IMG/VR virus record: IMGVR_UViG_3300008339_006872
Location: 1 to 22,337 of that record
DNA from: a virus
DNA length: 22,337 nt
Reading direction: 5' to 3' (one strand)
The notes below the pieces were generated by a model, which was not told where the DNA came from, did no database searches, and saw nothing but the letters and a program-made list of their open reading frames with translations. Shown here piece after piece: positions 6,174 through 21,733 of the stretch (position 1 is the first letter of the stretch; every line of letters starts with the position of its first letter). The position numbers and the translations under genes were made by a program.

Positions 6174-6175
6174 GT

Positions 6176-6751
6176 ATGGTTAACTCAAAAAATGAATTTT
6201 TATTGCCAAAAGATTTAGAAGGACCTGGCATATCTTCTTATCAAGGAATTTGGGCTGATTCAGAAGAAACTATTTTTCAATTAGAAAATTATTACAATCT
6301 GGATTCTTTTGCGTCTTTAAATGAAATGTCTAAAGATAGTGATTCAATAAACCAAATACTAAAAAGATATACAAAAATACTTGAAATAACTGTTTTTGGG
6401 TATAATTTTCATTTTGGAGTTAATGAAGGATTTTATATAAACGAAGATTCTTTTGTTTTAAAGTTTGAAGATGGTGAAGAACGTCAACTTAGTTATGGTG
6501 GAGGCACACAAACTGGCAGATCAATGTGTGCAATTCTTTATTTAAATGATGATTATGATGGTGGAGAGATTGAATTTGTTAACCTTAATTTAAAAATTAA
6601 TCCAAAAGCGGGAACACTTTTACTATTTCCAGCAAATTTTTTATATTCATATAAAGAAAATAAAGTAACAAATGGAACTAAATATTCAATTGTTAACTTT
6701 ATTCACGATAGACCAATTGACGAAATATCTAAGCAAGTTTTGGAACAATAA
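6176..6751 (+). CDS. 2OG-Fe(II) oxygenase-fold protein lacking visible iron ligands
   Basis: The middle and end follow the phage prolyl-hydroxylase-like pattern: VLKFEDGEE, GRSMCAILYLNDDYDGGEIEF, a PKAGTLLLFPA strand, then NGTKYSIVNF carrying the basic residue that would hold 2-oxoglutarate. The usual HxD of the first iron site should come between 'EDGEE' and 'TGRS', but the segment reads RQLSYGGGTQ with no His. The distal His expected after 'FPA' is replaced by YSYKENKV. So the fold is kept and the 2-His-1-carboxylate site appears lost. It may be a non-enzymatic descendant or use another metal site. The 191-residue product starts two bases after the endolysin stop, and the FmdB-like gene starts inside its stop. 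Confidence 0.7.
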   Translation: MVNSKNEFLLPKDLEGPGISSYQGIWADSEETIFQLENYYNLDSFASLNEMSKDSDSINQILKRYTKILEITVFGYNFHFGVNEGFYINEDSFVLKFEDGEERQLSYGGGTQTGRSMCAILYLNDDYDGGEIEFVNLNLKINPKAGTLLLFPANFLYSYKENKVTNGTKYSIVNFIHDRPIDEISKQVLEQ

Positions 6752-6927: not shown

Positions 6928-6933
6928 TACAAT

Positions 6934-7297: not shown

Positions 7298-7301
7298 TCG
7301 T

Positions 7302-8291: not shown

Positions 8292-8293
8292 TC

Positions 8294-8302: not shown

Positions 8303-8325
8303 CAGAGTAGACAATAGGAGGCATC

Positions 8326-8886: not shown

Positions 8887-8900
8887 AAAAGGGGTAGAGT

Positions 8901-9059
8901 ATGAATGATTTAACAATTGAAGAACTTAAGCAATTGGTTGTTTTTTATAAGCAAAAAAGTTCGGATCTTGAGTTTGAACTTTTGAAAACACAACTAATGA
9001 TTAATAGGGCAGTTACAACTAAAGTTCAACCAGAACCAAAAAACAAAAAGTCTGAATAA
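8901..9059 (+). CDS. Small coiled-coil protein
   Basis: This 52-residue product is one helix with a heptad-like spacing of hydrophobic residues (TIEELKQLVVFYKQKSSDLE) and a polar tail ending PKNKKSE. A GGGG stretch seven bases or so before the ATG can serve as the ribosome site. No family is recognised. Confidence 0.6.
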   Translation: MNDLTIEELKQLVVFYKQKSSDLEFELLKTQLMINRAVTTKVQPEPKNKKSE

Positions 9060-9070
9060 AAGGTCATGAT

Positions 9071-9490: not shown

Positions 9491-9806
9491 CGATTACCAG
9501 GTTTTTCTTCGTGCAATGGGAGTCGCTATGTCTGCTATGCAAGAAGAAGACAAAGAATTTTTAATATATTCTGTTGGTCCTGCAAAAATTAACTCAATGG
9601 TTTCAGAATTTTCTAATCTTTCTGAAAGAGGAATGAAGTCAAGAGGAAAAAAGATTAAATTTTTTAAGGTTCCTCCTTCTTATGTTGAAGAAAACATTGA
9701 TTATGTAAATCATCTAGCATTTTTAAGCAAGCCAAAAGAACCACTTTCAAAGTTAGTCGCATTAGCCGAACTCAAAAATATTGAAGTCGGAATTTACAGA
9801 TACTAA
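9456..9806 (+). CDS. Small Rossmann-like protein, possibly SLOG/DUF2493-related
   Basis: From the ATG at 9456 the protein begins MIVVVQGTKEFNDYQVF, which resembles the first strand and loop of DUF2493/SLOG nucleotide-binding proteins (usually 'GSRDFxDY'). FLIYSVGPAKINSMV matches the second strand region, and the ending LVALAELKNIEVGIYRY fits the last helix and strand. The usual glycine-rich 'GGAKGAD' is degenerate, so nucleotide binding is doubtful. Earlier in-frame ATGs at 9444, 9450 and 9453 are possible. At 116 residues it overlaps the preceding gene. Confidence 0.5.
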   Translation: MIVVVQGTKEFNDYQVFLRAMGVAMSAMQEEDKEFLIYSVGPAKINSMVSEFSNLSERGMKSRGKKIKFFKVPPSYVEENIDYVNHLAFLSKPKEPLSKLVALAELKNIEVGIYRY

Positions 9807-9815
9807 GGATATAAA

Positions 9816-10025
9816 ATGATTATAAATAAATTAGAAACAATGGAAGCAATTGTCAAGAAGAATCGTAATCTTCGCTGGGATGGATGGAACGTAATGGATC
9901 TTAAGAAAACAGACATTGCCAGAACATCTCCTCAAGGAATTAGAATTAATGGTGAATGGTACCTAAACAAAGTTTATGTATTAAATAGTAATGGCTGGGA
10001 TATTCCGAATAAATACAAGGAGTAA
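9816..10025 (+). CDS. Conserved-looking small actinophage protein
   Basis: This 69-residue product contains RNLRWDGWNVM, then RINGEWYLNKVYVL and GWDIPNKY at its end. I associate this pattern with small uncharacterised actinophage proteins, but I know no function. AAGGAT five bases before the ATG is the ribosome site. The final lysines end just before the WhiB gene. Confidence 0.65.
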   Translation: MIINKLETMEAIVKKNRNLRWDGWNVMDLKKTDIARTSPQGIRINGEWYLNKVYVLNSNGWDIPNKYKE

Positions 10026-10028
10026 CTA

Positions 10029-10316
10029 GTGAAGCAGCATTTATGGAAAGATGAAGCCAAGTGTCTTGGTTTAGAGACTAATTTATATTTTGATAAATAT
10101 GAAGATGATATTGATTTAAGATTTAACATAGATAATTTTTGTGAGTCCTGTCCAGTTGCAAAAATATGTTTTGCTAATGGTGTATCTGGCAAAGAGTGGG
10201 GTGTTTGGGGTGGTGTATACTTAGAAGGTGGAGAAATCTCTAGGGAGTTCAACAAACACAAGACAAAAGAAAAATGGGGTGAGGTGTGGAAATCTCTGAC
10301 AACGGAAATGAATTAA
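10029..10316 (+). CDS. WhiB-family iron-sulfur transcription regulator
   Basis: The four WhiB cysteines are Cys12, Cys38, Cys41 and Cys47 (CESCPVAKIC), followed by the diagnostic GVWGG turn at 58-62. WhiB-like proteins bind a [4Fe-4S] cluster and contact the domain-4 region of the primary sigma factor; the family is confined to Actinobacteria and their phages. At 95 residues it is the usual phage size, and its C-terminal tail is basic (KHKTKEK). The start is GTG with AAGGAG upstream. The phage protein may redirect or restrain host transcription, which is inferred from the family. Confidence 0.88.
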   Translation: MKQHLWKDEAKCLGLETNLYFDKYEDDIDLRFNIDNFCESCPVAKICFANGVSGKEWGVWGGVYLEGGEISREFNKHKTKEKWGEVWKSLTTEMN

Positions 10317-10585
10317 CACCGTTTGAAAGTATTTGTGAAATACTTGCCGATTTATGGATTAATCATAAGCATGAAAAAACATTTCAAGATTTTATATCTT
10401 ATAATGATTTAGGGTTGCCCCTTGCTTTTTTAATTGATTCAGAATTAGTCATACCAACCGAACTAGCAAAAAGATATATTGAAGAAACTTGGAACATTCT
10501 TCTTAACTCTCTTGAAATTGAAAATGATACTGGTTTTGAATCTTTAGAAGATTTGTTTAATTATTCTAAAATGGAAGAACAATAA
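10286..10585 (+). CDS. Hypothetical acidic protein
   Basis: The GTG start lies inside the end of the WhiB gene, after GGGGTGAG, giving a 31-base overlap. The 99-residue product is acidic and helical (FESICEILADLWINHKHEKT, later YIEETWNILLNSLEIEND). No cysteines or known motifs are present. It overlaps the next start by one base. Confidence 0.6.
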   Translation: MEISDNGNELTPFESICEILADLWINHKHEKTFQDFISYNDLGLPLAFLIDSELVIPTELAKRYIEETWNILLNSLEIENDTGFESLEDLFNYSKMEEQ

Positions 10586-10815
10586 TGTATACATATGATA
10601 TGCGTAAGGCTGTACACTCAATCATTCCTCCAAAAAATTTTGGTGTTCAAATTATTGACAATGATAGTTTTTTAACTATTAAACTTAATGAAATGGATTT
10701 TTTGCCTATGGCTCATGACGAAAAAATAGAGGCTGTTGAGTATGTTGCAAGAGTAAAAAAAGCATTAGAGCAAAATGGTGCAATTGTTTTGGTTACAAGA
10801 GAGGCAGTTAAATGA
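10585..10815 (+). CDS. Hypothetical small protein
   Basis: The ATG overlaps the previous stop (TAATG). The 76-residue product reads like a small alpha/beta protein (FGVQIIDNDSFLTIKLNE, then a helix KIEAVEYVARVKKALEQNG and a strand AIVLVTREAVK). It has no recognisable family. It ends overlapping the halogenase ATG, so the two genes are probably translated together. Confidence 0.6.
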   Translation: MYTYDMRKAVHSIIPPKNFGVQIIDNDSFLTIKLNEMDFLPMAHDEKIEAVEYVARVKKALEQNGAIVLVTREAVK

Positions 10816-12380
10816 AAGATATTGTTGTAGTTGGTGGTGGCTCTGCAGGATGGATGACAGCAGCAATACTAATAAAATCTTTTCCTGAAAAAAATATTTA
10901 TGTACTTGAAAGCAATGATATTCCACGAGTTGGGGTTGGAGAAAGTACATACGAAGGCATAAACCATTATCTTGAGTATTTAGGAATTGACAGAGAATCA
11001 TTTTTTGAATATACAAATGCCACGGTAAAACTTGCAATTCAATTTAGAAATTTTTATAAAGAATCTGGTGAACCAGATTTCATTTATCCTTTTGGAGCGC
11101 CTACCTTTACTAAAGAAGGATCATCTTTAGATGATTGGATGGTAAGAAAAAATTTAGATAAAACTATACCAGTTACAGATTTTGCAGAGTCATATTTTCC
11201 AGCAGCACATCTAGTTAAACATAATAGGCTAACTGATAAAAACCATTATGGTAATTTTACACAAACTCTTAATACTGCATTACATTTTGACGCAATAAAG
11301 TTTGCAGATTGGCTAAAGAATAATTATTGTTTGCCACAAAATGTTAAGCAAATTGTAGGAACTATAGAAAAAATTACCACAAACGACAATGGTGTAGATA
11401 AGTTATTCTTGTCGGATGGAACAACTGTTTCTGCAGACCTATTTGTTGATTGCACTGGGTTTAAGAGTTTATTACTAGACAAAACTCTTAATGAAGAATT
11501 TATTTCTTATACTGATCTACTTCCTAATACAAACGCATGGGCAACACAAATACAGTATAAGGACCCAGAAATTGAAATTGAAAATGTTACAAGATGCACA
11601 GCCCTAAAAAATGGCTGGTGTTGGAATATACCTCTTTTTTCTAGATTAGGTTCTGGCTATGTATATTCTGATAAGTATACAACACATGAAGATGCACTTG
11701 AAGAATTTAAAAAATACTTAATGACAGAGTTAAAAATACCAAGAACAAAAGAAGAAGTTGAAAGCCTAGATTTTAGAAATATACAGATGAGAGTTGGTAT
11801 TCATAAACGTACTTGGGTCAAAAATGTAGTTGCAATTGGTCTTGCTGCAGGTTTTATTGAGCCACTAGAAAGCAATGGGCTTTTTACTGTTCATGAATTT
11901 TTGTTCTGTTTAATCAAAACATTACAGCATGATAAAATTTCTCAATGGGATAGAGACGTATACAATAAGGCTACAAAAAAGATATATGACAACTTTGTAG
12001 AGTTTATTAGACTACACTATGCTCTTAGTTTAAGAGATGATTCTGAATATTGGAAAAATAATTTTAATAGAACATTTTTTAATGATGAAAACAGTTCAAG
12101 TGTTTTTAGTCACTTAAATGACATGGCAACAATTAAAATGAACTCAATAAGTTCAATGCCATTAAGAGGTGGAAATGGTTGGATTGCAACTGGGATGAAC
12201 TATTTTATTCTTGATAGCGTTGCTTTGGCTTTTTCTGATATACTGTATGGTAATCTGGATAAGGAAAAAATAAAAATAGTGTTTGAAAATTTAGATAATA
12301 ACAAAAAAATATGGGAAAATTTAGCACTTGAATCAGAAACTTCGTATCAATATATAAAGAGGAAATATCATAGTGAATAA
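10812..12380 (+). CDS. Flavin-dependent (tryptophan-type) halogenase
   Basis: The 522-residue length is typical of the family. The FAD-binding VVGGGSAGWM is at residues 6-15 and the second flavin-contact motif GVGEST at 41-46. Lys73 in ATVKLAIQF corresponds to the catalytic Lys79 of PrnA. The WxWxIP signature of flavin halogenases is present as W269-C-W271-N-I-P274, and EPLES at 350-354 holds the catalytic Glu-Ser pair. These enzymes use FADH2, oxygen and chloride, bromide or iodide to halogenate an aromatic substrate, so a flavin reductase from the host would be needed. Viral relatives are known in cyanophages. The substrate cannot be read from sequence. It overlaps the gene before and the Cys-rich mini-gene after. 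Confidence 0.9.
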   Translation: MKDIVVVGGGSAGWMTAAILIKSFPEKNIYVLESNDIPRVGVGESTYEGINHYLEYLGIDRESFFEYTNATVKLAIQFRNFYKESGEPDFIYPFGAPTFTKEGSSLDDWMVRKNLDKTIPVTDFAESYFPAAHLVKHNRLTDKNHYGNFTQTLNTALHFDAIKFADWLKNNYCLPQNVKQIVGTIEKITTNDNGVDKLFLSDGTTVSADLFVDCTGFKSLLLDKTLNEEFISYTDLLPNTNAWATQIQYKDPEIEIENVTRCTALKNGWCWNIPLFSRLGSGYVYSDKYTTHEDALEEFKKYLMTELKIPRTKEEVESLDFRNIQMRVGIHKRTWVKNVVAIGLAAGFIEPLESNGLFTVHEFLFCLIKTLQHDKISQWDRDVYNKATKKIYDNFVEFIRLHYALSLRDDSEYWKNNFNRTFFNDENSSSVFSHLNDMATIKMNSISSMPLRGGNGWIATGMNYFILDSVALAFSDILYGNLDKEKIKIVFENLDNNKKIWENLALESETSYQYIKRKYHSE

Positions 12381-12528
12381 TGTAAATGCAATGTCAATGA
12401 TAAAAATGGCTATTGGATCAATAAGATGTAAAAAAAACGGTCACAATCTTAATGAAAAAGTTTCATGCCCATTTACAGGAAAATCATATCGTGGATGCAT
12501 GGTGTGTGGAAAGGTAATAACTATATGA
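12373..12528 (+). CDS. Cys-rich zinc-ribbon-like mini-protein
   Basis: The GTG start follows GAGGAAA and overlaps the halogenase stop. The 51-residue product has Cys19, Cys32, Cys42 and Cys45 plus a His (RCKKNGHNL, then VSCPFTGKSYRGCMVCGK), a plausible zinc ribbon. The stop overlaps the next ATG (ATGA). Function unknown. Confidence 0.6.
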   Translation: MNNVNAMSMIKMAIGSIRCKKNGHNLNEKVSCPFTGKSYRGCMVCGKVITI

Positions 12529-12953
12529 GTTTAACGGTTATTCTGTCAGTTTGTCTTTTTTCAATGTCTGTTGCTTATCTTACATCAGTATATAATTTTA
12601 ATAAACTTCGTTCTAGACATCAAAAACTTTTTATTGAGATGATGGTTCTTGAAAAAATAGTAAACGAATCTGAAGAGTTAAAGATTCAAAGCGATGAAAG
12701 TGTTCATAAGGAAAATTTTATTAAATTTTTATCTGATTCAAGAGATTGGGCCTATAAATATATTGAGGATGTACAGTCTGGGCTAAGTAATTTTATTGTT
12801 ACCATTGAACCAGAGATTAAATATTTTAAAGAATTTGGTGGTGTTCTTGGTGAAAGTGCTCCAAATTATTACTCTATGAAAAAAATAACAGAAGAGTATG
12901 AAAAGTTAAAAACTTTATTGCCAAAAGAAGAAAACACAAATTATGAAAAATAA
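12525..12953 (+). CDS. Membrane-anchored helical protein
   Basis: The ATG overlaps the previous TGA, with GGAAAGG upstream; this start puts a membrane segment at the very N-terminus (MSLTVILSVCLFSMSVAYL). A frame open from 12465 would run through the Cys-rich gene and is rejected. The remaining 120 residues are helical and charged, with coiled-coil-like stretches (EMMVLEKIVNESEEL, KKITEEYEKLKTL). The 142-residue layout resembles small phage membrane tethers. No family is recognised. Confidence 0.65.
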   Translation: MSLTVILSVCLFSMSVAYLTSVYNFNKLRSRHQKLFIEMMVLEKIVNESEELKIQSDESVHKENFIKFLSDSRDWAYKYIEDVQSGLSNFIVTIEPEIKYFKEFGGVLGESAPNYYSMKKITEEYEKLKTLLPKEENTNYEK

Positions 12954-13674
12954 AAAAGTATTTTTTGTTCCTAGAAGTCAGATTGTTTCTGATATAAATA
13001 GGTATCCACAACCATCCAAAAAATATATTCCTGAATGGTATAAAAAAATGAGTGGATCTTATAAAGAAAAAAATGGTTTCTTAGTTCCTGGACCTAAAAG
13101 TTGTATGCCATTTTTAGATTCTTTTACAAGTGGCTATACAATGGAATTGGCAACAGATGTTGTTATTCAATATCACGGAAAAGATCCTAAAACAAACAGA
13201 GATGACATTAGTTATACTTGGGCTGGTGGTGGTAATAACCTTACGGAAAGACCTATAACAACAAGACAAGAAGAAACTGATGCACCTTTTGCTCTTCCAA
13301 AGTTTGACGGATACTATGATACAGAATTTCAATGGTATACCATGTGGGATACAAAAACGCCACTAGGGTATAGCACTGTATATCATCATCCCAATAATAG
13401 GTTTGATTTGCCGTTCCACACTTTTACTGGAGTAATAGATACTGATACCTGGAATGGTGATGGTCCAATTCCATTCTTATTAAAAGAAGGTTTTGAAGGG
13501 GTTATTCCAGCAGGTACACCGATTATACAGTTTACCTTCATTAAAAGAGAAAACTGGAAATCTGAAGCATTAGAGTTTGATCAAAAGAAAAGAAGAAGAG
13601 AAAAACATATGGTCAAAAGACATATTATGAATGGGTACAAAAAAGAACATTGGAAAAAGAAAGAGTTTGATTAA
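12943..13674 (+). CDS. DUF6065-like phage protein (paralog of the minus-strand gene at 20334)
   Basis: This 243-residue protein is clearly homologous to the minus-strand protein at 20334-21029. Both share PEWYKK/PDWYKK near residue 30, a K-x-C-x-PFL-(D/E) motif, (T/S)GY, HP-x-NR-x-DLPF, (F/S)GV, and IPF-L-KE-FEGVI-x-(Q/A)GTPI. I recall the name DUF6065 for such proteins but cannot verify it. No catalytic motif stands out. The conserved His-Pro-Asn-Arg-Asp and Trp/Tyr residues could form a ligand site. The start overlaps the membrane protein by 11 bases. It sits two genes from the halogenase, so a linked role is possible. Confidence 0.6.
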   Translation: MKNKKVFFVPRSQIVSDINRYPQPSKKYIPEWYKKMSGSYKEKNGFLVPGPKSCMPFLDSFTSGYTMELATDVVIQYHGKDPKTNRDDISYTWAGGGNNLTERPITTRQEETDAPFALPKFDGYYDTEFQWYTMWDTKTPLGYSTVYHHPNNRFDLPFHTFTGVIDTDTWNGDGPIPFLLKEGFEGVIPAGTPIIQFTFIKRENWKSEALEFDQKKRRREKHMVKRHIMNGYKKEHWKKKEFD

Positions 13675-13675
13675 T

Positions 13676-13834
13676 ATGAAAGAAATATTTCTATCAACAT
13701 TAACAGGTTTTGGATGTGGCGTAGTATTTGCTGCATTCAAATTGCCAGTACCAGCACCACCAGTTTTTGCGGGAGTCGCAGGAATTATTGGTTTATGGAT
13801 TGGCTTTACAGTTATAACGAATATAATATCCTAG
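13676..13834 (+). CDS. XapX-domain small membrane protein
   Basis: The 52-residue product is two hydrophobic helices joined by KLPVPAPPVFAGVAG, which is the XapX family core (P-x-PAPP). The ATG lies one base after the DUF6065-like stop; an upstream frame from 13631 runs through that gene and is rejected. XapX proteins are tiny membrane proteins of unknown function and are unusual in a phage. Confidence 0.75.
   Translation: MKEIFLSTLTGFGCGVVFAAFKLPVPAPPVFAGVAGIIGLWIGFTVITNIIS
13800..13827 (+). promoter_or_regulatory. Possible promoter (TTGGCT-16-TATAAT)
   Basis: TATAAT at 13822-13827 with TTGGCT 16 bases upstream lies in the end of the XapX gene. It would start transcription about 12 bases before the next ATG, with AGGAGG (13833-13838) in that short leader. 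The tight spacing makes this uncertain. Confidence 0.4.
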
Positions 13835-13845
13835 GAGGAAAATAT

Positions 13846-14124
13846 ATGAATGAACAAATTAAGGCACTACTAGCATCATATGGACGATCAGTCCTTGGTG
13901 CAGGCCTTGCACTATACATGTCTGGGGTAACAGACCCTAAGACTCTTGCTTACTCACTATTGGCTGCGCTTGCGCCAGTTGCATTGAGAGCACTCAACCC
14001 TAATGATAAGGCGTTTGGTCGTCTTCCAGATGTAGCAGAAGTTGATGCTGCAGTTAAGAAGGCAACCGTTAAGAAGGCTCCTGTCAAGAAGGCTGTCAAG
14101 AAGGCTGCACCAAAGAAGAAGTAA
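13846..14124 (+). CDS. Membrane protein with Lys/Ala-rich tail, holin-like
   Basis: AGGAGG seven bases before the ATG fixes the start, giving 92 residues. A hydrophobic region at about residues 15-50 (SVLGAGLALYMSGVTDPKTL, then AYSLLAALAPVALRAL) fits two membrane segments. NPNDKAFGR follows, and the last 27 residues are Val-Lys-Lys-Ala repeats ending APKKK, like histone H1 tails. The hydrophobic part resembles small actinophage proteins sometimes labelled holins. The basic tail could bind DNA or the membrane face. It is the last gene before a terminator. Confidence 0.65.
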   Translation: MNEQIKALLASYGRSVLGAGLALYMSGVTDPKTLAYSLLAALAPVALRALNPNDKAFGRLPDVAEVDAAVKKATVKKAPVKKAVKKAAPKKK

Positions 14125-14130
14125 TTCTTT

Positions 14131-14170
14131 AGGGAGGGATATGCATATCTAGCCTATCCCTCTCTTTTTT
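14131..14170 (+). terminator. Rho-independent terminator
   Basis: AGGGAGGGATA (14131-14141) pairs with TATCCCTCTCT (14155-14165), with one G-U pair, around a 13-base loop, and six Ts follow at 14165-14170. It closes the transcription unit that includes the halogenase. Confidence 0.85.
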
Positions 14171-14180
14171 GGATACCATT

Positions 14181-14891
14181 ATGTATATATTTCAAAATCA
14201 AATTAAACCTAAATCTAAGACTGCATTAATAATGTGCACCTATCTTAGATACAAGAACTTGCCCAAAACATATAGCGACCTTAATAGTCAAACTAATTTA
14301 GACTTTGATTTTTATATATCTGATAACTCAAATGGTGACCCACACATATTAAATACAACTAATAAATTTTTAGAATCTTTTCAGTATAATCTTTTTATTA
14401 AAGAACATCATAATAAATATAGTATTTTTAGTAGATTTATACTAGCAAAAGAACTTGCAAAAAGTGGATATGAAAAAATTATTATCATTGATGATGATGA
14501 AAGAATTCCAGCAAACTTTATTCAGGATTGTTATGATCAGTATGAAGATAATACAGTTAAGTCTTTTTACGCACATAAAATAATTGATAACTATTGGGAA
14601 AAGGTTATGTTGAAGCCAGGAGAGTTAGGAAACTACGCTGGTGGCGGTGGACTGATGTGTAATGCAAAACTTTTTTTGCATAAAGACTTTTTTAATTGTC
14701 CAAAAAAATATTATGTACTTGATGATTTGTGGATTTCATATTTTTCTAAAGAAATTGCAGGATATAACATTAAATTACTTAAGACAGATATTAGGTTTAT
14801 ACACGATAATCATGCAACAGCAAAAGGACTAATAAAAGAAAAACAATATTTTACAGATAAATACATACTGAAAAAAGAGTTAAATAAATGA
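14181..14891 (+). CDS. Glycosyltransferase, GT-A fold (GT2-like)
   Basis: The protein starts MYIFQNQ and then shows the GT-A nucleotide-sugar pattern: TALIMCTYLRYKNL, FYISDNSNGD, and the metal-binding IIIIDDDERIP at about residues 106-116. A GGGGLMC loop and a late LDDLWIS follow, with a His (RFIHDNH) near the end. These fit a small inverting transferase of 236 residues. The ATG at 14181 lies 11 bases after the terminator T-run, so expression depends on read-through or an unseen promoter. A TTG at 14169 would fall in the T-run and is less likely. Its stop overlaps the next gene (ATGA). Confidence 0.75.
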   Translation: MYIFQNQIKPKSKTALIMCTYLRYKNLPKTYSDLNSQTNLDFDFYISDNSNGDPHILNTTNKFLESFQYNLFIKEHHNKYSIFSRFILAKELAKSGYEKIIIIDDDERIPANFIQDCYDQYEDNTVKSFYAHKIIDNYWEKVMLKPGELGNYAGGGGLMCNAKLFLHKDFFNCPKKYYVLDDLWISYFSKEIAGYNIKLLKTDIRFIHDNHATAKGLIKEKQYFTDKYILKKELNK

Positions 14892-15487
14892 AAATTGATC
14901 TAAGAAAATTCCCAACTTTTTACATTAACATGGATAAACATCAAGATAGAAACACTGACATGATAAAACTTGGCAAAGATGTTGGGTTTAATCAATACTC
15001 AAGGTTTTCAGGTATTGCTATGCCAAAACAACCAATGGCGGGATGTGCAAAGTCTCATTACGGAATTTTAGAAAACATGAGCAGTCCAACAATAATACTT
15101 GAAGATGATTGTGTTATTAAAAATGATTCATATGTTTTTGAAATACCAGACGATACTGATGCTTTATATCTTGGTTTGTCTGGATGGGGTTTTCTTAATA
15201 GCGAATCTAAACTAAACAATTTTTCTTATCAAAAACATACAGATTTTTCAGGTATTTATAAAATAAATGGAATGCTTGCTACTCATGCTATATTATACAT
15301 ATCGCCAGAATACATAGAGTTATCAAAGAAAATTGCTAAATGGTCTGGAGATAATAATCAGCATATTGACCAAGGTTTTGCACTTGTTCAAAAATATTTT
15401 AATGTTTATGCTTTAAAGAAACCAGTTTTTTATCAGCACAGTAATACAGCATCAACTAATATTATATTAAGAGGAATGAATGGCTAA
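14888..15487 (+). CDS. Glycosyltransferase, GT25-like
   Basis: FYINMDKHQDRN, then AGCAKSHYGIL and IILEDDCVI is the GT25 signature (usually YxxNLxxxxxR, GCxLSH, EDD), known from LPS beta-galactosyltransferases and related enzymes. The EDD is the metal and sugar-nucleotide site at about residue 73. The 199-residue length is near the family norm. It overlaps the genes on both sides and should act on the same acceptor chain as they do, which is inferred. Confidence 0.75.
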   Translation: MKIDLRKFPTFYINMDKHQDRNTDMIKLGKDVGFNQYSRFSGIAMPKQPMAGCAKSHYGILENMSSPTIILEDDCVIKNDSYVFEIPDDTDALYLGLSGWGFLNSESKLNNFSYQKHTDFSGIYKINGMLATHAILYISPEYIELSKKIAKWSGDNNQHIDQGFALVQKYFNVYALKKPVFYQHSNTASTNIILRGMNG

Positions 15488-16193
15488 ATTTGGATCTTTA
15501 TGGGTAGGAAACCCAATGACAAAAATACAAGAAGTATCTTTATCTTCTTTCATATATCATGGCCACAACCTTACCCTTTATGTATACGACATGGATATGA
15601 AGGTCCCAGAGGGCGTTCAGAAGGCTTTTGCGGGGGATATTATGGATGAGTCTGAGATGTTCCTAGTACAGAATACATATGCAGCATTCTCTGATTTATT
15701 TAGATATAGGATGATTAAAAAGACTGGTTTGACATGGGTAGATGCTGATACTATTTGTTTATCACCTGACTGGGACGGGCTTGGATATACCTATGCTTGC
15801 CTGGAAAATGATACAGTGGTTGGTGGTGTTCTTGCTTTACCGCAAGATTCTCCAGCATTAAATTATTTAATTAAGAAGTCAACTCAATTTGATAAAACAA
15901 AGATTAAGTGGACTGATGTTGGTCCAGCCCTTGTAGACAAAGCATTTAGATCTTTTGAATTAATGGAACATGTTCAGCCAATGGAAGTTTTTTGTGGAGT
16001 TCACTGGTCTCAATGGGAAAAATTATGGAATCCAAAACATACAAAAGAAATTAAATTATTAGAGAAAACTTCAAAAAGTATTTCTGTTTATCACTCAATG
16101 ACAACTCGTGGAGGAATAGACAAAAACTATTTTCCACCAAAGTCTGCAATGGAATATTTTTATGATAAATTCGTAATGAAGAAGTGGGGATAA
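15480..16193 (+). CDS. Glycosyltransferase with DXD motif (GT32-like)
   Basis: The segment YAAFSDLFRYRMIKKTGLTW directly followed by VDADT is the Gly_transf_sug (GT32) pattern, with the Asp-x-Asp metal site near residue 89 and the SDLFRY helix before it. The start LWVGNPMTKIQEVSLSSFIY fits the 'iW.g..p....' opening of that family. HSMTTRGG near residue 204 would provide the late His. The 237-residue length fits. AGAGGA before the ATG, inside the previous gene, is the ribosome site. Confidence 0.75.
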   Translation: MAKFGSLWVGNPMTKIQEVSLSSFIYHGHNLTLYVYDMDMKVPEGVQKAFAGDIMDESEMFLVQNTYAAFSDLFRYRMIKKTGLTWVDADTICLSPDWDGLGYTYACLENDTVVGGVLALPQDSPALNYLIKKSTQFDKTKIKWTDVGPALVDKAFRSFELMEHVQPMEVFCGVHWSQWEKLWNPKHTKEIKLLEKTSKSISVYHSMTTRGGIDKNYFPPKSAMEYFYDKFVMKKWG

Positions 16194-16194
16194 T

Positions 16195-16842
16195 ATGAAT
16201 AAGATAAGTATTGAATATGACAAAGGGGCAAACTTCCTGTCATCATTAATGAAGAATTATGGAAGCGACAAGGGTTCTCCTCATGAGGTAGATATAACAC
16301 CTTCTGGTTGGATAGCGAATAGATACACAGACATATACCATATATTGTTTGCAACAATTCGTGATGATGCTAAGAAGATATTTGAATGTGGAATTGGCAC
16401 AAACAATGAAGATATACAGTCTAATATGACTGCTAATGGTGTCCCAGGGGCTTCACTAAGAGGCTGGAGAGATTATTTCTGGAATGCTCAGATATATGGT
16501 GCAGATATAGATGACCGTATTCTTTTTGAAGAAGATAGAATTAAAACCTATCAAGTTGATCAAACAGATCCAGAATCTATTAATAATATGTGGGAGCAGA
16601 TAGGTGAATCAGATTTTGATGTTATTCTTGATGACGGCCTTCATGAGGCTCATGCCAATATAACACTGCTTGAAAATTCGTGGGACAGGCTAAAGCATAA
16701 TGGCATATATATTATTGAGGATACATACTATACACATGAACCAATAAAGAAATACCTAAAGGAAAAGGGGTATAACTTTATCTTGGTAACCTTTGACAAT
16801 ACTGCCAGTTATTGCTTTGTAATATTTAAAACTACAGTCTAA
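16195..16842 (+). CDS. SAM-dependent methyltransferase (MycE/CmcI-like class I)
   Basis: The 215-residue protein shows IFECGIGTN (SAM motif I), then ASLRGWRDYFWNAQIYGADI (motif II), TYQVDQTD, DVILDDGLHEAHANI and GIYIIEDTYY. The 'SLR-W-dyFp-A-iyG-DiD' and 'DDG-H' features are typical of sugar O-methyltransferases acting on macrolide or glycan sugars (MycE/TylF-type) and of cephalosporin CmcI relatives. The Asp-Asp-Gly-x-His likely binds magnesium. It follows three glycosyltransferases within two bases, so it probably methylates a sugar they transfer. That target is inference. Confidence 0.8.
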   Translation: MNKISIEYDKGANFLSSLMKNYGSDKGSPHEVDITPSGWIANRYTDIYHILFATIRDDAKKIFECGIGTNNEDIQSNMTANGVPGASLRGWRDYFWNAQIYGADIDDRILFEEDRIKTYQVDQTDPESINNMWEQIGESDFDVILDDGLHEAHANITLLENSWDRLKHNGIYIIEDTYYTHEPIKKYLKEKGYNFILVTFDNTASYCFVIFKTTV

Positions 16843-16858
16843 GTCTGATTAAATAGGG

Positions 16859-16864
16859 TATAAT
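16859..16864 (+). promoter_or_regulatory. -10 box (TATAAT) six bases before an ATG
   Basis: TATAAT at 16859-16864 is followed by GGTAGG and then ATG at 16871, the same geometry as at 3694-3706. The -35 region is poor. The GGTAGG touches the ATG, too close to act as a normal ribosome site. Confidence 0.55.
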
Positions 16865-16870
16865 GGTAGG

Positions 16871-17437
16871 ATGGCTGATACATATACTCCAAATGCTGGC
16901 ATGAAGGCTGCTGCTAGACGTGCTTTGAAGTGGAAAGAAGATGGCAAAGCAACTGGTGCTGGAACCCCTGTAGGCTGGGGAAGAGCAAGTGATATTGTTG
17001 CAGGTAGATCAATGTCTCTTGATACAGTTAAAAGAATGTATTCTTTTTTCTCCCGTCACGAAGTAGACAAAAAAGGTAAAGATTTTTATAATACATCTAA
17101 TCCATCCAATGGCCGTATCATGTGGGACGCATGGGGCGGAGATGCTGGTTTCTCATGGTCAAGAGCAATTGTAAACAGAAATAAAGAAGCATCTGATCTA
17201 TTTATTAATTTTGGTAAGTTTATTCCTGGAGCAGAAAGATTAACAGAAGTTTTTGATTTATCTAAAAAAGAAAATTACGGTGGTGTAATTGGAAACAGAA
17301 AGGGTGAACCAGCAGACAAAGAACTGTATGCAAGAGTAATTGCAGCAGCGAAGAAAAAGTTTAAGGTTTACCCATCAGCATACGCTAACGGCTGGGTAGT
17401 GCAAGAATACAAGCGCCGTGGCGGAACATATAAATAA
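16871..17437 (+). CDS. Phage protein with DUF5872-like C-terminus, probably leaderless
   Basis: Two modules are visible. Residues about 10-110 carry KAAARRALKWKEDGKA, VGWGRASDIVAGR, VKRMYSFFSRHEVDK and WDAWGGDAGFSWSRAI, a module I associate with phage structural or maturation-protease-linked proteins. The C-terminal part (YPSAYANGWVVQEYKRRGGT) resembles DUF5872, named from memory. The product is 188 residues and basic. A virion or packaging-related role is possible. It stands alone between the glycosylation operon and the converging tRNA genes, with its -10 box placed for a leaderless mRNA. Confidence 0.65.
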   Translation: MADTYTPNAGMKAAARRALKWKEDGKATGAGTPVGWGRASDIVAGRSMSLDTVKRMYSFFSRHEVDKKGKDFYNTSNPSNGRIMWDAWGGDAGFSWSRAIVNRNKEASDLFINFGKFIPGAERLTEVFDLSKKENYGGVIGNRKGEPADKELYARVIAAAKKKFKVYPSAYANGWVVQEYKRRGGTYK

Positions 17438-17440
17438 AAG

Positions 17441-17512
17441 TACCCCTGGCAGGATTTGAACCTGCGACCTACACCTTAGAAGGGTGTCACTCTTCCACTG
17501 AGTTACAGAGGT
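17441..17512 (-). tRNA. tRNA-Arg (anticodon TCT)
   Basis: The complement folds with acceptor ACCTCTG/CAGGGGT (one G-U), D stem ACTC/GAGT, anticodon stem ACACC/GGTGT around CTTCTAA, and T arm GCAGG-TTCAAAT-CCTGC. CCA is not encoded. It reads AGA, the commonest Arg codon in this window by eye. Confidence 0.93.
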
Positions 17513-17516
17513 TTGG

Positions 17517-17588
17517 AGCCTTCTGTCAGGATTGAACTGACGACATCTCGCTTACAAGGCGAGTACTCTACCACTGAGTTAAGAAGGC
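17517..17588 (-). tRNA. tRNA-Thr (anticodon TGT)
   Basis: Acceptor GCCTTCT/AGAAGGC, D stem ACTC/GAGT, anticodon stem CTCGC/GCGAG around CTTGTAA, and T arm GTCAG-TTCAATC-CTGAC. CCA is not encoded. It reads ACA. It lies four bases from the Arg gene. Confidence 0.93.
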
Positions 17589-17589
17589 G

Positions 17590-17661
17590 CATCTCCAGAG
17601 AGAATTGAACTCTCGTTTACACCGTGAAAGGGTGTTGTCCTAACCACTAGACGATGGAGAC
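17590..17661 (-). tRNA. tRNA-Glu (anticodon TTC)
   Basis: Acceptor GTCTCCA/TGGAGAT (terminal G-U), D stem GTC/GAC, anticodon stem ACACC/GGTGT around CTTTCAC, and T arm GAGAG-TTCAATT-CTCTC, with discriminator G. CCA is not encoded. It reads GAA. One base separates it from the Thr gene. Confidence 0.93.
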
Positions 17662-17662
17662 T

Positions 17663-17738
17663 TGGCTGGTCTGGCAGGCTACGATCCTGCGACTTCCGAA
17701 TTAACAGTTCGGCACTCTACCAACTGAGTTACAGACCA
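17663..17738 (-). tRNA. tRNA-Asn (anticodon GTT), with CCA encoded and an odd T loop
   Basis: Acceptor TGGTCTG/CAGACCA is perfect, followed by G and an encoded CCA. Anticodon stem CCGAA/TTCGG surrounds CTGTTAA. The T stem GCAGG/CCTGC holds the loop ATCGTAG where TTCRANN is expected, so positions 54 and 58 are A and T instead of T and A. It is the only member of the array with CCA. Confidence 0.9.
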
Positions 17739-17742
17739 ATAG

Positions 17743-17816
17743 TACAACAGGTAGGACTTGAACCTACGATAACCGAATTATGAGTTCGGGGCCTTGACCA
17801 ACTTGGCTACTGTTGC
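17743..17816 (-). tRNA. tRNA with anticodon CAT (Met elongator, or Ile2)
   Basis: Acceptor GCAACAG/CTGTTGT (terminal G-U), D stem GCC/GGC, anticodon stem CCGAA/TTCGG around CTCATAA, and T arm GTAGG-TTCAAGT-CCTAC. The paired first base and the lack of three G-C pairs in the anticodon stem exclude an initiator. CAT could also be an Ile-AUA tRNA if the C is lysidinylated; sequence alone does not decide. It is the first gene after the array promoter. Confidence 0.9.
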
Positions 17817-17980
17817 TTGTTAATTATATTATATCCTGCATTATCTAGGTTGTCAACTATTGCATTAACAATAACTTCATAATCTATTTCCATAATAAAA
17901 TGATTTTCTATCTTGTGCATGTTTATTGCAATTGGTGCATGATGTTGCAATGATTTAGATATTATTTCTTTGTAATCCAT
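17807..17980 (-). CDS. Small hypothetical protein overlapping the tRNA array
   Basis: The 57-residue product (MDYKEIISKSLQHHAPIAIN...) starts on the stop of the upstream gene (TAATG) and ends at a TAG ten bases inside the tRNA-Met gene. No family is recognised. Its last third also carries the perfect promoter of the tRNA array, so this DNA has three jobs. The coupled start supports it being translated. Confidence 0.55.
   Translation of the reverse strand: MDYKEIISKSLQHHAPIAINMHKIENHFIMEIDYEVIVNAIVDNLDNAGYNIINKQQ
17828..17856 (-). promoter_or_regulatory. Full-consensus promoter (TTGACA-17-TATAAT) for the tRNA array
   Basis: On the minus strand TTGACA (17856-17851) and TATAAT (17833-17828) are 17 bases apart. 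Predicted transcription starts near 17821, about five bases before the tRNA-Met gene. It is the only promoter in the window matching both hexamers exactly. Confidence 0.85.
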
Positions 17981-18243
17981 TATTTACTCTTTGGCTTAGG
18001 GTTTCTGCTTTCAATAAGTTCAATTATTCTATCAAGACCTTCAGAGTAAGTCATTGCATCATCTTTAGCCCAAAATAAAGTACCATCTTCATTAAACGAA
18101 CTGCCCCTGTATTCAAGATATTCTTTTTGTATTTGTTTTATTATGGTAACTAATTGTTTTCTTTCCCATTTAACTGCTTTTTGACAGCCACTACATGGAC
18201 AGGCCCAATCTCCACGGTCAGGTGTTTGATTTGGATCAGCCAT
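17980..18243 (-). CDS. Small Cys-containing hypothetical protein
   Basis: The 87-residue product begins MADPNQTPDRGDWACPCSGC, with three Cys in CPCSGC followed by QKAVKWERKQL, a helix, and a basic tail (NPKPKSK). The CPCSGC start recurs in small uncharacterised actinophage proteins, to my recollection. The ATG overlaps the stop of the 25-residue membrane peptide upstream. Confidence 0.65.
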   Translation of the reverse strand: MADPNQTPDRGDWACPCSGCQKAVKWERKQLVTIIKQIQKEYLEYRGSSFNEDGTLFWAKDDAMTYSEGLDRIIELIESRNPKPKSK

Positions 18244-18320
18244 TATCTATCATGCTTTCCATGAACATAACCAACAATTATTCCACAAATAAAACCTATT
18301 ACAAGGTCAATTACTTCCAC
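18243..18320 (-). CDS. 25-residue membrane micro-protein
   Basis: GTG start at 18320, with a perfect AGGAGG six bases upstream (18332-18327). The product is one hydrophobic helix with charged ends (MEVIDLVIGFICGIIVGYVH then GKHDR). It starts within the end of the carbamoyltransferase gene and its stop overlaps the next ATG. The ribosome site is stronger than those of most neighbours, which argues that it is translated. Confidence 0.6.
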   Translation of the reverse strand: MEVIDLVIGFICGIIVGYVHGKHDR

Positions 18321-19866
18321 TGTTTTCCTCCTCATATTTTTTAAAAATTGTATTACCAATTATCATGTAATCTATTGGAGAACTATAAAATAAATCAATT
18401 GCATTTTCAGGATATCCAGCAATTGGTTTTTTATTAACATTTAAACTAGTATTTAAAATTATTGCACATCCCGTAATATTGTAGAACTCTTCTATTAGTT
18501 TTCTAAAATAGCCATCATCTTTTTCAACTGTTTGTACTCTGCAAGTATTATCAACATGTGTAATTGCAGGAAAATCTTTTACAATAAAATTATTTGTAAA
18601 TAACATATAAGGATCTTTATTTTCAAACTCAAAATAATCTTTTATATTTTCAGACAAAACTGAAGCACCAAATGGTCTATAAAACTCTCTGTTTTTTACG
18701 GTGTTTATTATTTTTTTCCCATCTTTTATTCTGGGATCCATTAGTATAGAGCGGTTCCCCAATGCTCTTGGCCCAACTTCTCCATGTTCTTGATACCAAC
18801 CAACTATTTTACCTTCAGATAGTAACTGTGCAACCATTTTAATTGTTTCATCAGTTGGTTTGTCTTTTGGTGCAATATCATTTTGGCAGTAAGGAAAGTT
18901 TTCTAGTTTAAACTTTGGTAAATTATTTAACTGTCTTAAAAGTTCAATTGCTCCTAGGCTTGTTCCTTCATCACTTGAATGTGGAGCAACAATAAGGTTC
19001 TTAAACTTATTTAAAATTTTTGTGTTCCATACAACGTTTTGAGCCACACCACCAGAATATGAAACAACATCATCGGTATCTGCGTATTCTAAAAATAAAT
19101 TAACTATTAAATCTCCAACTGCTTCATGAACCGTTCTAATCCAATCAAGTTTATTGTGTGCAGCAAGTAGCAGATCGCCTTTATGTTCAATCCATCTTTC
19201 AAAATTAAAAATCTGATTTACTTCATCAATTGAATATTCTTTTGTTTTGTTTAAAAAATCATTATCTACTTTTCCATAAGACTGCAGCCCCATAATTTTT
19301 CCAGCGTTATCATGAATATTATTAGAATTAACTCCAAGCATCGGTCCAATTTCACCCATAGTAAGACCAATAGATCCGTTTTCTATTCTTCCATACCGAA
19401 CAATTTTGTTGTTTTTAAATACAGTATAGGTTCTTCCTTGACCAACTCCATCAATAACTATTTTTGTTGATGGCAAATTATTTTCATCTTCTAGCATCCA
19501 AGTTGACATAGCATGAGCATAGTGATGATTTAAATGCCATAACTCTTTTACTCCATGAACCGCAAACATATTTGCATGGTCTGGAACTTTATAATAGTTT
19601 TTGTTATAATCTCTTAAGGCCTCAAACCCATCAGGCTCTTTACCACCATTAAACTTTGTGGCATCATAATCAATTGCTACTTGATCAATTTCTTTAATTT
19701 CAAAGTTAAATAATTTTTCAGCATCTTTTATGATTTCCCAAATTGTTTCATACCAAAAATGTTTTTCTTGTTTTGTTCTTTCAAATTTATGATAATATAG
19801 TTTTTCTCCATCAAAATAAGAAACATTGTTATCGTGATACATCAAACTAATACCCAATAACTTCAT
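18307..19866 (-). CDS. Carbamoyltransferase (NodU/CmcH/TobZ family)
   Basis: The 519-residue length is near the usual size. Residues 1-12 MKLLGISLMYHD begin the actin-like domain. NHHYAHA at 113-119 supplies metal ligands His114 and His118, and VIDGVGQGRT around 137-146 the next Asp. SYSGGVAQNVVWN and SSDEGTSLG complete the nucleotide site. The C-terminal domain shows GEVGPRALGNRSILMDPR, NREFYRPFGASVL, and NTSLNVNKKPIAG. Family members move a carbamoyl group from carbamoyl phosphate, via carbamoyl-AMP, to a hydroxyl on Nod factors, cephalosporins or aminoglycosides. The acceptor here is unknown; the neighbouring glycosyltransferases suggest a glycan. GGGGGAAT precedes the ATG. Confidence 0.92.
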   Translation of the reverse strand: MKLLGISLMYHDNNVSYFDGEKLYYHKFERTKQEKHFWYETIWEIIKDAEKLFNFEIKEIDQVAIDYDATKFNGGKEPDGFEALRDYNKNYYKVPDHANMFAVHGVKELWHLNHHYAHAMSTWMLEDENNLPSTKIVIDGVGQGRTYTVFKNNKIVRYGRIENGSIGLTMGEIGPMLGVNSNNIHDNAGKIMGLQSYGKVDNDFLNKTKEYSIDEVNQIFNFERWIEHKGDLLLAAHNKLDWIRTVHEAVGDLIVNLFLEYADTDDVVSYSGGVAQNVVWNTKILNKFKNLIVAPHSSDEGTSLGAIELLRQLNNLPKFKLENFPYCQNDIAPKDKPTDETIKMVAQLLSEGKIVGWYQEHGEVGPRALGNRSILMDPRIKDGKKIINTVKNREFYRPFGASVLSENIKDYFEFENKDPYMLFTNNFIVKDFPAITHVDNTCRVQTVEKDDGYFRKLIEEFYNITGCAIILNTSLNVNKKPIAGYPENAIDLFYSSPIDYMIIGNTIFKKYEEENSGSN

Positions 19867-20115: not shown

Positions 20116-20340
20116 TCATTCTTCCTTGAATACTTCATTTTTTCCTTGAACAATAGAACGGCATGCCTCAAACGCTTTGCGTGTTCTGCGACTTTTCAAG
20201 AATCCTTTGCGTTCCCAGATTTGCTGGGTAAATAAAATATCTTGATCTATTTGGTATCTTATTTCTTTTACCGTAGTAACAATAAGATCCATTATTTTTG
20301 TTTTTTGTTCTTCTGTTAGTTCTTCTGTCCAGTCTACCAT
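20116..20340 (-). CDS. Hypothetical helical protein
   Basis: The 74-residue product is acidic at the start (MVDWTEELTEEQKTKIMDLI) and basic after residue 44 (ERKGFLKSRRTRKAFEACR), fitting a small helical bundle or nucleic-acid-binding protein. No family is recognised. The start overlaps the end of the upstream DUF6065-like gene by seven bases. Confidence 0.6.
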   Translation of the reverse strand: MVDWTEELTEEQKTKIMDLIVTTVKEIRYQIDQDILFTQQIWERKGFLKSRRTRKAFEACRSIVQGKNEVFKEE

Positions 20341-21029
20341 TGCTTCTTCTTCCAGTGTGTGTTTTTATACCATCCCAAAAAAACTGTATTTGCTTTTTCT
20401 GTGTTTTTAAAACCTTCTTCCAATATCTTATTGTTTTCTTTTAATTCCCATTTTTCATTTTTAAATGGTATTAGTTGTGCAATTGGGGTTCCTTGATGTA
20501 TTACTCCCTCAAAGTTTTCTTTTAAAAAAAACGGAATACTTCCATGAGGTGCTAAAACATAACCACCCTCAAGAACTCCACTTAGTGTATAAAAAGGAAG
20601 ATCGTTTCTGTTTAATGGGTGTGTAAACAAAATACTGTAGTCTTTAGGAACAGTGAAGGATCCAAAAGTTTTCCACACCCAATGTTCGTTAGAGTATCCA
20701 TGAGGCACTGGCAAAAAGGGATTACTTTGTGGATTTCTTTGATCTACTAACTGATCTCTATTTCTCCAAAAAAATGCCTGCTTGCCATTTTTAATAGAAA
20801 CCATTATGTCTGCAGGTAAAAGTAAATGATATCCAGTTGTTATTGCTTCTAAAAATGGTGTACAGGCCTTAAATGTTCTGTCATCAACTTCTGAAAACTT
20901 TCCACTTAAAAATTTTGGAGTTTTCTTGTACCAGTCTGGCACAGTTGCAGATGCCTGCTTTACTGTTGGAAAATCATTTTGAACTATAGAAGCATGCTCA
21001 AATGTTGGTTTATCTTTTTTAAATATCAT
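20334..21029 (-). CDS. DUF6065-like phage protein (paralog of the gene at 12943)
   Basis: This 231-residue protein shares VPDWYKK, KACTPFLEAITTGYH, THPLNRNDLPFYTLSGV and IPFFLKENFEGVIHQGTPIA with the plus-strand protein at 12943-13674. That is clear homology despite the opposite strand and about 7 kb of distance. No function is known to me. It lies directly downstream of a glycosyltransferase (two-base gap), and its paralog lies near the halogenase, so both copies neighbour tailoring genes. The DUF6065 label is from memory. Confidence 0.6.
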   Translation of the reverse strand: MIFKKDKPTFEHASIVQNDFPTVKQASATVPDWYKKTPKFLSGKFSEVDDRTFKACTPFLEAITTGYHLLLPADIMVSIKNGKQAFFWRNRDQLVDQRNPQSNPFLPVPHGYSNEHWVWKTFGSFTVPKDYSILFTHPLNRNDLPFYTLSGVLEGGYVLAPHGSIPFFLKENFEGVIHQGTPIAQLIPFKNEKWELKENNKILEEGFKNTEKANTVFLGWYKNTHWKKKQW

Positions 21030-21031
21030 TA

Positions 21032-21733
21032 TTATCCAAACTCATACATTCCTATGTGTTTTGCTACTGCGTATGGAGCCAAATAAACTTTGCCCCCAGT
21101 TTTTATCCAGGACTTACAAAAATAATAATCTTCTGATAAAAGAGTGTTTGTTTCTTCATCAATTTCTAAACTAAAAAAGTTTTTTGTAGTTTTATCTTCA
21201 CTGTTTTTAAACATTAAAGAATTATTTGTATAAGTTTCTGCATCTATTATATCAAATACTTCTCTCTTTATCAGCATGTATCCCGTTCCAATTCCAGAAA
21301 CTTCCTGTACTTCATTGTTGTCAAAAAAATCATTATTATTTTTTTGTGTAAAGACATAATTAAATCCATTTTTATGAAAATTAGAGTCTCCATTAAGCAC
21401 GGAAGACCTAATCTTAATCCAATCAATCTTTTTTAAAGGATATAAACCACCAATAATATCTCTATCTTCTTTTACTAATCTTATAACGTCTTTTGCATTA
21501 AAATAAATATCTGCATCAATAAAAAGTAAATGAGTTGAATCTGATTCTAAAAATAATTTTGTAAGGTCATTTCTTGCACGATTAATTAGTGATTCATTAT
21601 ATATAAAAGCAGTTGAAAGACCCCATCCTTCTTTTTCAATCTCTTGCTTTAGTGCTAATATTGCTTTTGTGTATTCTCCACTGCACATGCCTCCATACAT
21701 GGGGGTTGCTAAGAATATGCTTGGTGTTTTCAC
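21032..21733 (-). CDS. Phage glycosyltransferase, GT-A fold with DAD motif
   Basis: ATPMYGGMCSGEYTKAI near the start, then IYNESLINRARNDLTKLFL, STHLLFIDADIYF (metal-binding DAD at about residues 73-75), and GGLYPLKKIDW are typical of a phage glycosyltransferase family. The late part has GIGTGYMLIKREVF and LLSEDYYFCKSW, with the catalytic-type acidic pair. The 233-residue product starts at a GTG overlapping the TGA of the zinc-finger gene (GTGA), with AAAGGA upstream. The substrate is unknown; surface glycan or virion modification are both possible. Confidence 0.8.
   Translation of the reverse strand: MKTPSIFLATPMYGGMCSGEYTKAILALKQEIEKEGWGLSTAFIYNESLINRARNDLTKLFLESDSTHLLFIDADIYFNAKDVIRLVKEDRDIIGGLYPLKKIDWIKIRSSVLNGDSNFHKNGFNYVFTQKNNNDFFDNNEVQEVSGIGTGYMLIKREVFDIIDAETYTNNSLMFKNSEDKTTKNFFSLEIDEETNTLLSEDYYFCKSWIKTGGKVYLAPYAVAKHIGMYEFG

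Follow-up and report, generated by a model that had tools for sequence, protein, structure and literature searches.

A swap slot with a probable glycan-decoration cassette in a WhiB-bearing phage

The window described here is the whole of a 22,337-base virus record from IMG/VR (IMGVR_UViG_3300008339_006872), for which no close DNA match over its full length is found among 50,697 phage records. Its central element is the block at 14,169–16,842, a swap slot that consists of three glycosyltransferase (GT) genes—GT14169, GT14888, and GT15480—and one methyltransferase gene. The slot is bordered by a small protein on the left and a phrog_2859-like protein on the right and is neighbored by a flavin-dependent halogenase, a carbamoyltransferase, and a fourth glycosyltransferase, GT21032 (Table 1). 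A sequence-only reading of the window had named the halogenase, four GTs, a methyltransferase, and a carbamoyltransferase; all of these genes are open where it placed them and belong to the families it gave. The WhiB-like gene of the window probably indicates an actinobacterial host, and an aquatic habitat is suggested by likeness to described actinophages. Three other records represent the same phage type as the window, namely L002/G001 (99.98% DNA identity), L003 (99.9%), and L005/G003 (97–99%), and L004 is a relative with 81–84% DNA identity.

All four GTs of the window contain an acidic DXD-type motif. Two of the four pass a Pfam cut-off, the third owes its assignment to PHROG and to gene order in the cyanophage P-SSM2, and the fourth to PHROG and a fold model. 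GT14169 reaches 24.5 bits with PF00535, just above the cut-off of 23.3, and has its DDD motif at residues 108–110. GT14888 stays under the Pfam cut-off for GT25 (17.6 of 24 bits) and carries EDD at 72–74. Its homolog in P-SSM2 sits within a cluster of GTs and epimerases, and no match to it is found in L005. GT15480 exhibits DAD at 88–90. A sequence search of the PDB with E values up to 1 yields no matches for GT14888 and GT15480. The chains closest to the methyltransferase are 8ia9, a demethylmacrocin O-methyltransferase (1.5e-16), and 3ssm (1.2e-13), which we take to be MycE. The DDGxH and IED motifs of the MycE/TylE catalytic domain, which presumably bind metal, are present as DDGLH at 146–150 and IED at 174–176. 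The protein has 215 amino acids, and its match starts at residue 176 or 198 of chains of 397–419 amino acids; it lacks the N-terminal part of MycE/TylE and is a relative of the catalytic domain only. The left border protein is without a Pfam or PHROG match. The domain of the right border protein is very widespread, as it occurs in 577 of 600 stretches among the matches listed. In other phages it overlaps capsid, portal, or protease genes, and its position within the locus varies among relatives, as if inserted.

The slot content is replaced between near-identical phages, as can be appreciated by comparing the window with G003 in steps of 150 bases. From 13,000 to approximately 14,169, identity amounts to 94.7–100%. 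Inside GT14169 it is 65–73% per step and 68% over the DNA of the gene as a whole, compared with 99.5% for the preceding gene. No alignment is obtained at 14,875–16,852, and it resumes at 16,853, again with 94.7–100%. Outside the slot, the DNA of the halogenase is 98.7% identical, and that of the carbamoyltransferase and the fourth GT 99.7% each. The slot of G003 contains diverged forms of GT14169 (59% protein identity) and GT15480 (44%), a 502-residue double GT25 protein, and two methyltransferases. L004 possesses the cassette of the window with an additional epimerase, and an epimerase gene is also found in the window's twin G001, there outside the cassette (phrog_540, 1.5e-78).

Table 1. Features in and around the swap slot of the window. 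pLDDT, predicted local distance difference test; 2OG, 2-oxoglutarate.
Feature	Position	Strand	Basis
2OG-Fe(II) oxygenase, 4 kb upstream of halogenase	6176..6751	+	PF13640 over cut-off; phrog_61
WhiB-like regulator	10029..10316	+	phrog_12112 5.3e-10 and other PHROGs
VirX1-like flavin-dependent halogenase, conserved neighbor outside slot	10812..12380	+	PF04820 1.4e-103; phrog_2928 3.4e-133
phrog_7084 copy a, dUTPase-like fold (predicted)	12943..13674	+	phrog_7084 1.3e-32; model pLDDT 89.7
Small protein, left border of slot	13714..14124	+	99.5% DNA identity to G003; holin-like by eye only
Glycosyltransferase family 2 (GT14169), left edge of swap slot	14169..14891, in-frame ATG at 14181	+	PF00535
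GT25-like glycosyltransferase (GT14888)	14888..15487	+	phrog_24091 6.6e-53
Gb3_synth/capsular-synthesis-like glycosyltransferase (GT15480)	15480..16193	+	PF04572 (Gb3_synth) over cut-off
MycE/TylE-like O-methyltransferase catalytic domain	16195..16842	+	PDB relatives 8ia9, 3ssm
phrog_2859-like protein, right border of slot	16871..17437	+	phrog_2859 3.6e-32
Five tRNA genes (Arg, Thr, Glu, Asn, Met)	17440..17816	-	ARAGORN
NodU/TobZ-type carbamoyltransferase, conserved neighbor	18307..19866	-	PF02543 58.1 bits and PF16861 184.4 bits; phrog_1601 5.8e-145
phrog_7084 copy b	20334..21029	-	phrog_7084 3.6e-30; ~32% identical to copy a
Fourth glycosyltransferase (GT21032), GT-A-like fold (predicted)	21032..21733	-	phrog_1574 4.4e-44

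Slots of this kind recur in related phages. With the left border protein and WhiB as anchors, 61 loci are found, of which 48 remain after duplicates are removed by hand. Genes within loci were detected by tblastn with E values up to 1e-5 over at least 40–50% of the query, by which diverged copies are missed. Pfam models were run on 150 of the 167 open reading frames lying up to 4.5 kb downstream of the border gene, in 31 of 35 loci including L002, L004, and L005. They return GT1 (23 and 17 members by two models), FkbM methyltransferases and RXYLT1-like GTs (16 each), GT2 (10), and other methyltransferases and GDP-mannose dehydratases/epimerases (4 each). As a background set, 75 loci were fetched with the right border protein and thinned by hand, a match being counted anywhere in the locus. 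GTs of the common cassette type, other than those of the window, occur in 38 of these 75 loci; where both o10585 and the border gene are present, the count is 32 of 42.

Part of the cassette appears to be mobile by itself. A search with GT15480 finds 28 viral loci, a dozen of them 84–97% identical, in which the other genes are more diverged. Leaving out the twin L003, 27 loci were examined, several of which are near-duplicates. The order GT–(epimerase)–GT–GT–methyltransferase is kept in 15 of the 27, some being near-duplicates and two of the window's own kind. In the relatives, GT15480 is followed by the methyltransferase at similar identity. In L207, GT15480 is 97% and the methyltransferase 95% identical, compared with 53% for GT14888, 58% for GT14169, 56% for o12465, and 63% for o10585. 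The same kind of contrast is exhibited by L211, L212, L214, and L217. The likeliest reason for this contrast between the pair and its neighbors is that GT15480 and the methyltransferase moved together by horizontal transfer. Relatives of GT15480 in contigs of bacterial genomes occupy 7 of 49 candidate places and are 24–45% identical. An origin of GT15480 from the host was considered and rejected, as six of these relatives are titled as other phyla and one only as "bacterium," none being named actinobacterial.

A phage-borne cassette for glycan modification, probably directed at the virion or host surface, is consistent with the enzyme mix and with the replacement seen between near-identical phages, and herein the sequence-only reading is supported. 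Although some doubt attaches to it, the block at 14,169–16,842 is probably a hypervariable, serotype-like glycan-decoration cassette of a WhiB-bearing actinophage. The three DXD glycosyltransferases would transfer nucleoside diphosphate (NDP) sugars of host or phage in turn and thereby build a short glycan, of which the metal-dependent O-methyltransferase would cap one sugar hydroxyl. The acceptor is not made by the cassette, in line with the earlier view that it comes from elsewhere; it is probably either a protein on the virion surface or a surface glycan of the host itself. Cassettes would be exchanged through recombination within the conserved flanking genes, and near-identical phages would then present different glycans, like in serotype switching. 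The benefit may lie in masked receptors, in the exclusion of rival phages, or in evading host recognition. Actinobacterial phages of aquatic habitats are numerous and difficult to cultivate. A recurrent slot at which phages that are otherwise near-identical exchange glycan cassettes would be a concrete, testable source of their surface or host-range diversity.

Several points weigh against this interpretation. Acceptor, product, and donor pathway of the cassette are postulated, and the cassette adjoins tRNA genes and a family-less small protein, not a known receptor or fiber gene. The near-identical replacement rests on one contig pair, to which more distant contigs lend support, and contigs may be fragments. 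The gene order differs in 4 of the 27 GT15480 loci (L221, L223, L229, and L230), and unequal rates of evolution may explain part of the identity contrasts. Five bacterial GT15480 loci, when pooled, have mixed neighbors consisting of other GTs and housekeeping genes. For the GTs of such phages, DNA glycosylation has also been proposed in the accessible part of one report (PMC10202952).

The individual parts of this system are known from other phages. The lipopolysaccharide or cell-surface clusters of the T4-like cyanophages P-SSM2 and S-SCSM1 likewise contain runs of GTs, methyltransferases, and NDP-sugar epimerases, with a homolog of GT14888 in the former and of the methyltransferase in the latter. 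However, they comprise more sugar-nucleotide enzymes, whereas the window has a short cassette in a recurrent, swappable actinophage slot. For comparable cyanophage clusters, modification of the host surface has been proposed, as far as the available text of the source goes (PMC9602691). According to passages of PMC10202952, the actinophages E7 and F5 of Planktophila carry WhiB and GTs, and two islands of their genomes are highly variable. These islands are described as containing hypothetical proteins and tail-fiber, collagen-like, and DUF2541 genes as opposed to a GT/methyltransferase cassette, and for actinophage GTs the same passages propose DNA protection or prevention of superinfection.

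The halogenase and the carbamoyltransferase lie outside the variable block. The best solved relative of the halogenase is VirX1 of the cyanophage Syn10 (6qgm, 3.8e-86). The two share the motifs GxGxxG (8–13 in the window protein), WxWxIP (269–274), and EPLES (350–354), and K73 in NATVK aligns with the VirX1 lysine of NATYK. We read residue 353 as the probable catalytic glutamate. GxGxxG and WxWxIP are described as halogenase motifs in the accessible part of PMC8407142. Compared with its best place in Syn10, the window halogenase is 39.4% identical over 80% of the query, and the host of the window is probably actinobacterial rather than cyanobacterial. An enzyme of this type would halogenate an aromatic group. 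NCBIfam matches to LodB, QhpG, and CmlS lie far under the cut-off and were not used. For the carbamoyltransferase, both the N-terminal and the C-terminal domain pass the Pfam cut-off, and its PDB relatives include GdmN, a novobiocin carbamoyltransferase, and TobZ; it may O-carbamoylate a sugar hydroxyl or the hydroxyl of hydroxymethylcytosine.

In the background set, the halogenase occurs in 8 of 75 loci, the carbamoyltransferase in 5, and both together in none. As a zero overlap is expected by chance (P = 0.56), mutual exclusion is not claimed. GTs of the common cassette type are found in 5 of the 8 loci with the halogenase and in 33 of the 67 without it. The halogenase is located between o10585 and o12465 in five of the eight (L112, L116, L142, L147, and L151) and elsewhere in L098 and L109, and the locus L149 is cut off. 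In other loci, the position between o10585 and o12465 is taken by a phrog_7084 gene (L148 and L150) or by little else (L162). A phrog_7084 gene is present in 5/8 loci with versus 11/67 loci without the halogenase in the set of 75 (p = 0.009), but in 3/6 versus 8/36 in the 42 loci with o10585 and the border gene (p = 0.31). The halogenase and the carbamoyltransferase are best read as separately inherited neighbors of the cassette.

This distribution bears on the earlier proposal of one gene set, of which the families and their presence stand; the genes do not form one operon. On this reading, the tailoring enzymes would act together and add halogen, carbamate, methyl groups, and sugars to a host metabolite or glycan, as in antibiotic clusters. 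All tailoring families do lie within 11 kb, in the window as well as in its near-identical records, and carbamoyltransferase-like genes (28–32% identical) accompany the cassette at short distance on the opposite strand in 7 of 26 loci (without the twin L206), where flanks of up to approximately 6 kb were seen. S-SSM7 also clusters a halogenase, carbamoyltransferases, and heptose genes. However, the tailoring genes scatter independently, are unlinked in phage records, and have separate conservation histories. They are not inherited together by the locus counts, by counts in rotated genomes, or by the comparison with G003. Independent scatter in related phages, which had been named beforehand as refuting the proposal, is what is observed. 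Both neighbors do occur together in the near-identical L002, L003, and L005 and in S-SSM7. A single co-acting set is very improbable. For the halogenase, a role in protecting the host from antibiotics was called speculative in the accessible portion of an older review (PMC2984593). A further alternative is DNA hypermodification, in which the carbamoyltransferase, and perhaps the GTs, would modify 5-hydroxymethylcytosine or another base to block restriction. A carbamoyltransferase from a phage-like contig, described by MetaGPA, makes 5-carbamoyloxymethylcytosine and belongs to the same two-domain Pfam family as the phage-borne enzyme of the window. In the same source, as far as it is accessible, thymidylate synthase domains co-occur only in modified contigs, and GT1 neighbors are found in unmodified ones, which the GT neighbors of the window resemble (PMC8670742). 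No thymidylate synthase partner turns up in any of 16 records that bear a carbamoyltransferase, although these may be fragments. In addition, a modification of bases throughout the genome would be less likely to involve a cassette that is replaced between near-identical phages, and this explanation is considered quite unlikely.

Somewhat less remote, yet still unlikely, is that VirX1-type halogenases act after translation on the tail fibers or adhesins of their own phage, in concert with 2OG-Fe(II) oxygenases and in some cases GTs; the resulting halogenated or hydroxylated side chains would alter adhesion or stability. Stated for the family, phage homologs of tryptophan halogenase would be virion-maturation enzymes that halogenate aromatic residues of the phage's own fiber or adhesin proteins. 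This is an improbable generalization that, if true, would account for the open active site of VirX1 and for its natural substrate staying unclear. In 16 halogenase-bearing phage records with 20 merged loci, 139 2OG-Fe(II), 12 carbamoyltransferase, and 5 GT2 matches were located, with rotated genomes serving as the null. The number of 2OG matches is 41 within 10 kb of the halogenase loci versus 18.6 expected (p = 0.0002) and 28 within 6 kb versus 11.1 (p = 0.0012), and 14 of the 20 loci have at least one within 10 kb versus 9.6 expected (p = 0.024). At 3 kb, however, 10 matches versus 5.5 expected are not significant (p = 0.10–0.15), and the records are related and share synteny, so that the p values are optimistic. 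No excess over rotated genomes is seen within 10 kb for carbamoyltransferases (2 of 20 loci versus 1.6 expected) or GT2 (0 of 20). Nine of 16 halogenase stretches of 15–21 kb include a gene labeled tail fiber (P-RSM6, S-WAM1, P-TIM40, S-SZBM1, syn9, S-RIM44, P-SSM2, S-H38, and S-SRM01), compared with 2 of 10 controls, each 15 kb long and taken half a genome away, where one is a baseplate connector and the other lies at the stretch edge. This contrast is weak (p = 0.078), as is that for the same ten genomes (6/10 versus 2/10, p = 0.085), where the former figure falls to 5/10 if S-PM2 replaces S-WAM1. In S-SRM01, the halogenase lies between genes labeled tail fiber and adhesin tip. The active site of VirX1 is unusually open and accepts bulky substrates, according to the accessible part of PMC8407142. 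The Actinomycetia phage DSL-LC01 resembles the window in having an actinophage tryptophan halogenase adjoining a GT, as given in the available portion of PMC10611076. There, the halogenase is the penultimate gene of a minus-strand run that includes collagen-like genes, and it overlaps the GT gene; the run also contains a very long gene that is adhesin-like when read by eye. DSL-LC01 differs in lacking a near DNA match to the window and in having a thymidylate synthase, and the best 60 of 70 records in the halogenase search do not include it. In the window itself, 9 kb separate the halogenase from the closest candidate adhesin, which is a PA14-domain protein, and none of 8 halogenase loci of related actinophages contains a homolog of the window's 2OG gene. 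Collagen domains occur in only 4 of 33 records and the S74 tail-chaperone domain in 5 of 33; therefore, a collagen link was rejected as a general rule. No publication title stating fiber halogenation was found, as judged from titles and partial texts. The proximity of halogenase genes to 2OG oxygenases, and often to fiber genes, offers a testable clue to what viral halogenases act on.

Among the IMG/VR halogenase records, 10 of 17 have a 2OG gene, and the other seven are contigs of up to 10.3 kb. The 2OG protein of the window belongs to the Pfam family that clusters with halogenases in the 16 phage records; PADLOC, run on ten window proteins, returns nothing except a 2OG model for this one. 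It also matches PHROGs labeled DNA endonuclease V. In S-SSM7 (L188), a gene with the same label (SSSM7_124, 6960–7514) has a 2OG-Fe(II) oxygenase domain over the Pfam cut-off. Because of this domain and of the window protein matching PHROGs of that label, the label is probably an error spread via PHROG names. By annotation, S-SSM7 contains two carbamoyltransferases, a halogenase, 2OG oxygenases, a heptose kinase and isomerase, and a sugar epimerase at 3588–13,153, a run that is the one case seen resembling the idea of a common set. The run of DSL-LC01 (L192) spans 21,149–46,391.

The fourth GT carries DAD at 73–75 and SEDY at 200–203. No Pfam family passes the cut-off, and a PDB sequence search with E values up to 1 finds only bacterioferritin at 0.16. 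Its model, built from four sequences, is of moderate quality (pLDDT 70.5) and matches mostly glycosyltransferases, with E values of 1e-7 to 1e-4 in the upper rows and template modeling scores of approximately 0.5 or less. It adjoins copy b of phrog_7084, a family predicted from its model to have a dUTPase-like fold (Z of approximately 9.7 with dUTPase chains, e.g. 2py4 with Z 9.7 over 117 residues at 2.8 Å). Copy a retains a VIDTD stretch, which we take to be reminiscent of a dUTPase motif. A PDB sequence search with the family profile and E values up to 1 gives only chance-level rows (at least 0.2), dUTPases among them. G003 contains at least five divergent copies, or six with a tblastn match near 43,480 included, with further copies at 37,039, 37,767, and 39,455. 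In other phages, the family often occurs in tandem. It has members in 49 phage records, of which all except one carry names of haloarchaeal viruses, and it is labeled hypothetical protein in 40 of 40 rows among the matches listed.

The conserved backbone protein at 9444–9806 has no match in named phages. Ahead of the endolysin, at 3160–5296 on the plus strand, an HslV-like Ntn hydrolase, a secreted-looking subtilase, and HSP20 lie in a row, and this run is also present in some related phages. Furthermore, phrog_17480, a family without assigned function, has paralogs within the same phage type, at 2360–3109 on the plus strand of the window and at 18,511–19,287 on the minus strand of L021.

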